Of a DNA stretch of 64,000 nt, positions 29,762-32,333 are shown one piece after another. Position numbers and translations under genes: made by a program. This stretch comes from Nymphaea colorata (Eukaryota; Streptophyta; Magnoliopsida; Nymphaeales; Nymphaeaceae). A model generated the notes under the pieces. That model was not told the origin of the DNA, made no database searches, and was given only the letters and a program-made list of their open reading frames with translations. Location: NCBI RefSeq assembly GCF_008831285.2, contig NC_045145.1, forward strand, positions 14,586,040-14,650,039, written 5' to 3'. Within the stretch, counting starts at the first letter, position 1; each line of letters starts with the position of its first letter.

Positions 29762-29971
29762 ATGGATATCTTCATTTCCGAGGAGTACATGATCCGTCGA
29801 CGAAGGGAGAGGCTGGCGATGGCTCTCCGGAGCGAAGCGGACCGGGAGAGTCCGGTACAGTGGAAAGATCAAGTGCCGTTGGAACGAGGAAGTATGGCCA
29901 CCAAAATCCGCGTGGCCATCAGGTGCAGCGGGAAGGAGGAGGACATCGTCCTCAACTGTTTCACTCCTTGA
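29762..29971 (+). CDS. Small conserved-looking protein 1 (69 aa), paralogue of 32121-32333
   Basis: I do not recognise this family by name. The frame starts MDIFISEEYMIRRRRER and ends GKEEDIVLNCFTP. The second gene, 2.4 kb downstream, shares the N-terminal block MD(I/V)F(I/V)xE(E/D)Y(M/V)IRRR and the C-terminal block TK(I/V)R(V/F)AxRCxGKEEDIVLNCFTP, while the middle 30 residues differ. This pattern of constrained ends and a free middle, with both frames ending at the same place, argues for a real protein. It is basic in the first half, with no signal peptide or membrane segment. It is intronless, and the 3' sequences of the two genes also look alike (GGAATGTAA near 30230 and 32536). Function unknown. 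Confidence 0.72.
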   Translation: MDIFISEEYMIRRRRERLAMALRSEADRESPVQWKDQVPLERGSMATKIRVAIRCSGKEEDIVLNCFTP

Positions 29972-32120
29972 GAATCGTTTCGGAGCACGGGCAAGGTTTA
30001 AAAGAGTCTTCAGACGACTCGGTGTCGTTCTTCCCCGAGTCCTTTTCGCGGTGCCCTAGCGCCGGCGGTCTTAGCAAAAAGGGAAAACGACCCGACCGGA
30101 GCTCCAAGGGTTCCTCCGTATTCGCTGTGCATCGTACGGGATGATTAATCGAAGAACATCTCTGTTCGAAGTTTATTCTTTTTCTTCTTTCAAGTTTAGA
30201 ATTCCCTACCTTTATCTGGGAAAGCCTTGGAATGTAAGATTTCACTCAATATAAGCATACAAGCCTCTTTATATTCTTTTCCCCGAGAAGTTTCTTTTGT
30301 TTGTGTATGAGATGTGTTTGGTGCTGGTTGTCTGTGTGTGTGCGTCGAGCCCCGTTTACGTTACGTGACCACAGAACAGAGGCTACGTCAACCGCACCAG
30401 TTGGGTCGTATGAGAGGGAGAGTAACTTGAGAATTTCGAGTACGTGAATTTCGGGAAATTCGAAATTCAGGACAGAGTGGGGTAGAAATTTTCTCTTTGC
30501 GCAAGTAATTCAAGAGTTTCTATTGGAATCGGTAAGAATTTCTTGAATCGGGAATGTCGAAATTCATGGCAGGCAAAGAAGGGGAGATTTTTTCCTTTCG
30601 AGTTTCCAAGATGTGTTTTTTTCAGGAATCGGTGAAAAATCGGGAATTCCGAAATGCATGATATGAAGCTATGTGTGGTTTTCTTGGGAAGAAAAAATCC
30701 GATGGGCGCCGCGACGGGAAACTGGGGGCCGCAAGCGTACACGCGATGCTGTGCGCGTTAGAAACAGGAGCTTTAGATTGGTTTCCCGACGTTGATCGGA
30801 GAGGGTGAATGCCGGAGACCCTGTCCAACTCACTTCGACGCCTTGCGTTTCTAAATTGATTTATGATGCATTGTTGACTTTTATGGACTTTATAGAACAA
30901 AGGAACGGAAGCGGCCCGATTCCGGGGGGCGTCTTTACTTGGGACCAAAACTGTGGGAGGAGAGGGGCCTCCCCATAATAGTTAAAAAATTCATTCATAA
31001 GAGTTTTTTTATTTTTTACCAAGATATCCAAAATCTTGTCTGTTTTTAAGTTTTAATTTTTTTTTCTTTTTCAATGTTATAAAAAATCTCCAAATCTCAT
31101 AATACCTGTGACATATAAAACATTTTCTTTTAACAAACTAAATCCAAACTGCATACCTCATAAAGGATTTTATTAACAAACATATGTGGGCATCCCCTGT
31201 TTCCAGCAAATGTCTTGCCCACGAGAGTTGAACTCTCGTGGCAGCTGCTACCTGTCCCACCGTTTCTTTTGAGCTTGGTTCTCTGTGTGAACCTACTCCA
31301 ATCTGTAAATCATATTCACGACAATCATATTCCGGAAGCTGAAAGCCCACAGAAATCGGAATCGTGACAACCGGCGCTGTTCCCTCCGACCCCACCATGC
31401 CAAGTTGCCATTCGGCTCTGTTTCTTGAAGTCATCGTGGAAAAAGGGCTTTCATGCGAGGGCCCCGTCAATCTCCACTCCATCATCTGGCTTATGTTGTT
31501 CGATTTTTATAAACTTGAATATATTCATTATGCCTCAAATTAATGGATTTCAAATAAAAGGATGGAAGGCAGGGGGCCTCACTTGACGTCTATGATGAAT
31601 TTCAATATGAAAAGTTTACTTTCCAAATTCATATTGCAATTTCTTGCATTTTTTTTCAAATAAAGAAATTTCAAATCCTTGTCGGAAACCAAAGTTTCCT
31701 TCCGGTTACTACTTCACACGAAATGAAATGATGGGCTTGAGATTTGATCTAGGGTCCCCCTACTTCGCACGCACCTTTCGTGCCACTTACCCTCCACACA
31801 CACGGTAACAACTAATTAATGCCTCCAACGTTGGGTGAAATATTGTCGACCGTTCAAAGAGAGACCAACTCGGTCACATTTTCGCCATTAAAAGGAAGCG
31901 GACCGTTCAGGCGAGGCAGATTGCGCGAATTTGCTGGGAAGTTGGGGCTGGAAACCAGGGGCGGGCAAATTTTGTGGAGGAGGAAGAGGGCGCCCACGGG
32001 TTTCCGAAGGAGCGGGGGCTCCAACCACTGAATAAGAAGCCTCCCTGCGAGTGACGTTCCCTAGGAGTGACCGTCGCATCTGAGAGGCGAAAGCGAGGCT
32101 GCGCTACGAGTCACTCGGCC
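29972..32120. other. Region between the two small-protein genes
   Basis: The first 280 bases are probably the 3' UTR of small gene 1. From 30420 to 30660 a degenerate repeat built on GAATCGG...AAATTC occurs about twice. An AT-rich block follows (30970-31130). An open minus-strand stretch at 31138-31485 has no known domain and no supporting signal. From 31850 the sequence becomes GC-rich as the 5' region of small gene 2. Confidence 0.4.
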
Positions 32121-32333
32121 ATGGACGTCTTTGTTCCAGAGGACTACGTGATTCGCCGGCGCGGCGAGAAAATGGCGGACAAAAAAAAGAGGGCCCTCCG
32201 GAACGACCTGGATCGGGATCGGCCCATGCAGAAAATGGAGCGAGCACCTGCGGACTGGGGAACGAAGGTCCGGTTCGCGGCCAGGTGCGTCGGCAAAGAG
32301 GAAGACATTGTCCTCAATTGCTTCACTCCCTGA
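32121..32333 (+). CDS. Small conserved-looking protein 2 (70 aa), paralogue of 29762-29971
   Basis: It starts MDVFVPEDYVIRRRGEK and ends GKEEDIVLNCFTP. An in-frame ATG exists at 32067, but similarity to the first gene begins exactly at the ATG at 32121, so that start was chosen. The middle is strongly charged (KKKRALRNDLDRDR). It has no membrane segment or signal peptide and no intron. Head-to-tail arrangement with gene 1 suggests an old tandem duplication that included UTR sequence. I cannot assign a function; similar short plant proteins of unknown role may exist. Confidence 0.75.
   Translation: MDVFVPEDYVIRRRGEKMADKKKRALRNDLDRDRPMQKMERAPADWGTKVRFAARCVGKEEDIVLNCFTP

Follow-up and report, generated by a model that had tools for sequence, protein, structure and literature searches.

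Two tandem short frames in Nymphaea colorata, likely undescribed genes with conserved ends, and their probable distant relative

In a 64,000-base stretch of the Nymphaea colorata genome (the window), which is part of contig C8, two unbroken frames of 69 and 70 residues run from ATG to stop with no stop inside either (Table 1), as an earlier note made from the letters of this DNA had proposed. The start assigned to both copies in that note, MDxFxxEEYxIRRR, holds at nearly all positions. The exception is EEY, since copy 2 has EDY, and the start shared by the pair is MD-x-F-x-x-E-[E/D]-Y-x-I-R-R-R. The shared end, RCxGKEEDIVLNCFTP, matches exactly between the two copies. Upstream of copy 1, an in-frame stop is separated from the ATG by four codons, which leaves no unspliced upstream extension of this copy; upstream of copy 2, 22 codons are open. 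The genome in which further members were sought comprises 408 Mb in 783 contigs.

Table 1. Positions of the two frames, their conserved blocks, the probable third gene and the flanking strings (window numbering unless a contig is given)
Feature	Position	Strand	Remarks
Copy 1	29762..29971	+	69-aa unbroken frame with stop; start MDIFISEEYMIRRRR, end IRCSGKEEDIVLNCFTP
Copy 2	32121..32333	+	70-aa unbroken frame with stop; start MDVFVPEDYVIRRRG, end AARCVGKEEDIVLNCFTP
Start block of copy 1, residues 1-16	29762..29809	+	common to the frame on contig C7
Start block of copy 2, residues 1-16	32121..32168	+	
EEDIVLNCFTP end, copy 1	29936..29968	+	last 11 codons
EEDIVLNCFTP end, copy 2	32298..32330	+	
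Probable third gene	L011:1501-1749; contig C7, 17235185 onward		82-aa unbroken frame, start MDVFIPEEYVLRRREEA...; ACCATGG around start
GAGGAAGAGGG (11 bases), upstream of copy 1	29613..29623	+	possible retained 5' element
GAGGAAGAGGG, upstream of copy 2	31980..31990	+	
GGAATGTAA, downstream of copy 1	30229..30237	+	possible 3'-end signal, weak
GGAATGTAA, downstream of copy 2	32538..32546	+	inside the 66-base stretch 32514-32579

The two proteins are identical at 39 of 66 residues (59%), with 9/15 identical residues in the start block, 13/31 in the middle and 17/20 in the end. When the DNA halves carrying each copy (2.2 and 2.3 kb) were compared by blastn, one significant match was obtained (29758-29972 against 32117-32334, E 1.4e-17), and the seven other matches listed all had E values of 0.30 or above. 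The significant similarity stops a few bases at most from either end of the coding region; divergence of the middle and of much of the flanks had been described before. Among the 110 ATG frames of 50-100 residues found on both strands of the window, the copies were the sole pair at blastp E <= 1e-3 (7.6e-14), and a blastn of the window at E <= 1e-4 gave neither frame any other match within it. Over the 66 aligned codons, gap columns excluded, the copies differ at 16, 11 and 36 bases in codon positions 1, 2 and 3, and pN/pS was 0.33 (bootstrap 0.21-0.53; pS 0.65, pN 0.22). The dN/dS between the copies, which had been suggested as a check, was about 0.17 and thus not near 1, a rough value since dS, at 1.54, is near saturation. 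Random placing of the 63 base changes produced a mean of 37.7 amino-acid differences against the 27 observed, and as few as 27 were reached in 1 of 5000 placings. In the last 11 codons, all five base differences between the copies are third-position changes.

Relatives were sought among 5.8 billion proteins, with copy 2 alone and then with a profile of the pair and the relative P0001, over a length range of 0.55-1.75. Copy 2 retrieved one relative, P0001 (71 residues, E 6.8e-22); the profile retrieved P0001 again and P0002 (69 residues, E 1.8e-29), which were the only two at E <= 10 among 619 candidates. An absence of homologues had been named as an argument against the genes, and two homologues were thus found, each known from one contig of the source 'lgn' (1698 bases for P0001, 1417 for P0002), which makes for a thin base. 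A relative sharing just the 15-residue start block would probably fail to reach the E <= 10 level, and hence may have been missed. The pair's own two proteins had no row in either search, which implies that the database lacks them under N. colorata, or has them only as part of a protein whose length falls outside 0.55-1.75. As a control, the database was searched with an 80-residue DVL protein from this genome, for which a UniRef entry of N. colorata is 100% identical. Of 518 candidates, 513 were relatives at E <= 0.001, and the best 120 of these 513 came mostly from flowering plants where named, Victoria cruziana included. Short plant proteins are thus present in the database, and that the pair has so few relatives is informative without being proof; DVL is also an easy control because of its strongly conserved core.

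P0001 is nearest to copy 2 (52/66 identical) and P0002 to copy 1 (54/69), and identity across the two lines is 36-39/66. Twelve columns support the grouping of copy 2 with P0001 and of copy 1 with P0002, and none supports either alternative split; on the simplest reading, the duplication took place before the line of the copies parted from that of the relatives' source. Each line would seem to have kept its own residues since the duplication: copy 1 and P0002 have F-I-S-E-E-Y-M and KIRVAIR, copy 2 and P0001 have F-V-P-E-D-Y-V and KVRFAAR. These line-specific residues would fit a division of labour between the copies. Among the four proteins, 32 of the 66 ungapped columns are invariant, and these include the EEDIVLNCFTP end, for whose Cys-Phe-Thr-Pro the docking role suggested in the earlier note is a possible one. 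The longer end block given in the earlier note is not invariant in the family, since P0001 reads RWGGEEED where copy 2 reads RCVGKEED. The putative start of P0001 also lies five residues earlier, with MAVAA ahead of MDVF. The synonymous excess between the copies, together with the frame kept in the relatives (seen as proteins alone), points to purifying selection. Thus, the proposal that selection acts here on a short protein is supported by homology confined to the coding region, by the pN/pS of the pair and by two relatives that split the copies, and both copies are likely to be real, undescribed genes.

The family appears to be undescribed within what was searched, short single-exon plant proteins being already known as a kind. 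At E <= 10, Pfam had no match for any of the four proteins. The sole NCBIfam match had an E value of 0.15 and 11.6 bits against a cut-off of 229, and the two matches of the PDB sequence search (E 9.9 and 0.82) were counted as chance. Among open-licence papers, none was found that contains the peptide strings tried, and among the titles listed by subject none treats the family. Prokaryote genome contigs and viral contigs gave 135 and 50 pattern matches. None of these was confirmed, so that an origin in bacteria or viruses is disfavoured. The undescribed family of the earlier note therefore stands as regards Pfam, NCBIfam, PDB and open-licence papers, none of which gave a convincing match, and needs amending in that its members are probably not just the tandem pair.

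Indeed, when P0002 was searched against the genome at E <= 10, a third match appeared on contig C7 (E 4.95), and in the reverse comparison the first 43 residues of this frame matched the two copies with E values of 0.40 and 2.72. On E-values alone its relationship to the pair would be weak. A degenerate DNA pattern for MD.F..E[DE]Y-like starts, designed after the third gene had been seen, had three matches in the 408 Mb, all forward, and none on the reverse strand, and the reversed control gave 0 and 0; about 0.02 matches are expected from base composition (GC assumed 39%). Over the first 17 residues, the third gene shares 12 with copy 2, with 13 of the 17 third positions changed, and 11 with copy 1, with 9 of 17 changed. 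Residues kept over changed third positions indicate conservation at the protein level across altered silent sites, and for this reason, as well as for the pattern counts, we take the C7 frame as a relative and, from these comparisons, as probably a distant third member of the family. It has no Pfam match, four codons are open upstream of it, and its C-terminus lacks EEDIVLNCFTP. Since the start and not the C-terminus is shared, the start block would be the mark of the wider family, and the invariant C-terminus would be that of a two-copy subfamily. The copies do lie in tandem, as had been stated, in a family that is probably wider than the tandem pair. A fourth genome match, on contig C2 (E 3.5), begins at query residue 12, shows no start block in the three forward frames and was dropped as chance.

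Two strings accompany the genes. GAGGAAGAGGG stands about 140-150 bases ahead of the ATG in both copies, and the upstream stretch of the third gene has no string of at least 9 bases in common with these regions. GGAATGTAA is found after the stop in all three genes; 6 of 500 shuffled triples shared a string of 9 or more, and a longer form of GGAATGTAA occurs twice in the window against 2.57 times expected in shuffles. The stretch 32514-32579 recurs at 33474-33537 (77%), and both hold an AATGTAA string, so that GGAATGTAA after copy 2 may belong to a small repeat. Given the shuffle rate and this recurrence, the flanking strings are weak hints.

A Ty1/copia-type element lies upstream (23380-28279). 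It has gag at 23732 and reverse transcriptase at 26581, its coding region is split among several frames, and its end repeats of at least 300 bases are 94% identical (23380-23679 and 27980-28279). Outside this element, a direct repeat occurs on either side (22496-22781 and 29009-29296, 88.7%), the second block ending 465 bases before copy 1, and the stretch just past the first block recurs at 19793-19962. Eight head-to-tail copies of a 149-base unit, 99% alike, occupy 35443-36627. Elsewhere, the window has ordinary plant genes or parts of them: pieces of a 6-phosphogluconolactonase type (1218-4704), a piece of an MRS2-like magnesium transporter (39221-39799), a PPR protein with E motif (46164-47867) and, on the minus strand, a DUF1644 protein (53683-54810).

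AlphaFold2, run on the four-sequence alignment with each copy in turn as first sequence, predicted for either copy a helix that starts at residue 7 and ends at 28 or 32, then a loose middle, and at the conserved end two strands at about 46-56 and 58-68 that form a hairpin. Mean pLDDT was 62 and 64 and pTM 0.29 and 0.28, and at this low confidence the helix-linker-hairpin layout should be read as a hint, not as a structure. Foldseek with the copy-2 model (pLDDT 62) gave 53 matches against the PDB at E <= 10, to which no meaning is attached for a model of this confidence, and none at E <= 0.001. Each copy has 12-13 acidic and 13-17 basic residues, and both are hydrophilic (GRAVY -0.52 and -0.89; pI 7.8 and 9.4); this content, together with the charged start, argues for an intracellular protein. 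Several motif readings were set aside: an RVxF-type phosphatase-docking site at KVRF, where copy 1 and P0002 have KIRV, and a SUMO-interacting EEDIVL and an EAR-like LNCFTP, both of which fit the consensus incompletely.

Taken together, the data are best accounted for by an old tandem duplication whose frame has been kept by purifying selection and whose product would be an intracellular, partner-binding microprotein. We give this reading a probability of about 0.5, that is, about one chance in two for a two-ended binder, on the basis of conserved ends, a freer middle and the lack of a recognised domain. In view of the low-confidence models and of a Foldseek search with nothing at E <= 0.001, the case for a "binding microprotein" is made by small size, by the conservation of both ends and by the absence of a recognised family. 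The start block would open an arginine-rich helix, the middle would serve as a loose linker, and the conserved end might form a two-stranded hairpin finishing in EEDIVLNCFTP, all of this as predicted at low confidence. Start block and hairpin may each bind one partner, so that the protein would bridge, block or localise a larger protein; in other words, a small intracellular protein might hold two partners, or hold one and block the other. The third gene might then have one partner in common with the pair and a different second one. More tentatively, and with odds that we consider clearly against it, the three genes might be the founding members of an undescribed family of flowering-plant microproteins, in which a single start module (MD-x-F-[VI]-x-E-[ED]-Y-x-x-R-R-R-x-E) is combined with differing C-terminal partner-binding ends. 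The hairpin end EEDIVLNCFTP of the pair would, on this modular reading, have stayed letter-perfect while silent sites neared saturation, and the pair would serve a process specific to one early-diverging lineage of flowering plants.

Other readings explain part of these observations. The small size, the charge, the constraint on both ends and the predicted helix and hairpin would also suit a protein that is built into a larger complex (ribosome, mitochondrial, proteasome or the like) as a short structural subunit and is not a regulator, but core subunits are usually conserved in all plants, whereas only two relatives were found here against 513 for the DVL control, and we regard this as unlikely. 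About as improbable is the possibility that the frames encode conserved upstream peptides and lie within the 5' leader of some longer gene, with EEDIVLNCFTP stalling ribosomes in the exit tunnel. An invariant C-terminus right before the stop is typical of stalling peptides, and the pair is conserved at the peptide level; however, no unspliced main frame was found in the stretches examined, though a spliced one may exist. The plus-strand ATG frames listed in the interval that separates the copies, and from copy 2 to 33500, are 42-70 residues long, and the only plus-strand stop-to-stop frame of at least 120 residues between the copies (29746-30144, 132 residues) overlaps copy 1 in another frame. 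For copy 1, a following main frame would need to fit into 2.1 kb unless its splicing spans copy 2, and the third locus has no ATG frame of at least 60 residues in the following 1.35 kb. Moreover, the start block is conserved too, and is common to a frame that lacks the EEDIVLNCFTP end.

We consider it rather improbable that the products are short secreted or membrane-anchored peptides, either hormone precursors or CaaX-lipidated proteins. Peptide hormone precursors do have conserved C-termini, and C-F-T-P ends all four proteins with the Cys at -4, which is the spacing of a CaaX box. Nevertheless, a last-position proline is not known as a usual prenylation signal, the start of the pair (MD[IV]F..E[ED]Y..RRR) is charged and shows no apparent signal peptide by inspection, and Pfam offers no match. 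Finally, the pair might be what is left of a duplicated gene in decay, or two frames that are paired by chance and now lack a function. It lies near a copia element and repeats, N. colorata has no row in the protein searches, and the end of the third gene fails to match the pair. Against this, pN/pS is well under 1, internal stops are absent, and the frame of each copy is kept in a relative of its own, which makes decay or chance very improbable.

If the frames are translated, they would represent a conserved protein family that is seemingly absent from the N. colorata entries of the searched database. Two of its copies are old and have been maintained separately, and a third, distant member is probable. 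They would offer a concrete, testable example, in an early-diverging flowering plant, of selection maintaining a short gene for which the searched family libraries give no convincing match, and they show that conservation between paired copies can pick out short single-exon genes from raw sequence. Among known systems, conserved peptide uORFs are similar in that a short frame carries invariant last residues before its stop, and differ in that the pair has no adjacent unspliced main frame in the stretches examined and has a conserved start as well. The DVL/ROTUNDIFOLIA-like proteins (PF08137), whose genes are intronless, resemble the pair in that they are short plant proteins, combine a single conserved block with otherwise variable sequence and lie, in some cases, in clusters. 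However, neither the four proteins of the family nor the third gene match the DVL domain, and DVL has 513 relatives in the same database against two. In the N. colorata genome, DVL matches occur at 23 places, with clusters of eight on contig C2 (34198212-34275228) and five on contig C11 (18244141-18264712), which suggests tandem growth of this short-protein family. Plant microproteins and short adaptor proteins, such as LITTLE ZIPPER and SIAMESE-RELATED, form a known class, from which the pair's family differs by having no recognised Pfam domain at all, and which it would nonetheless resemble as a short intracellular protein that tunes larger proteins through short conserved segments.
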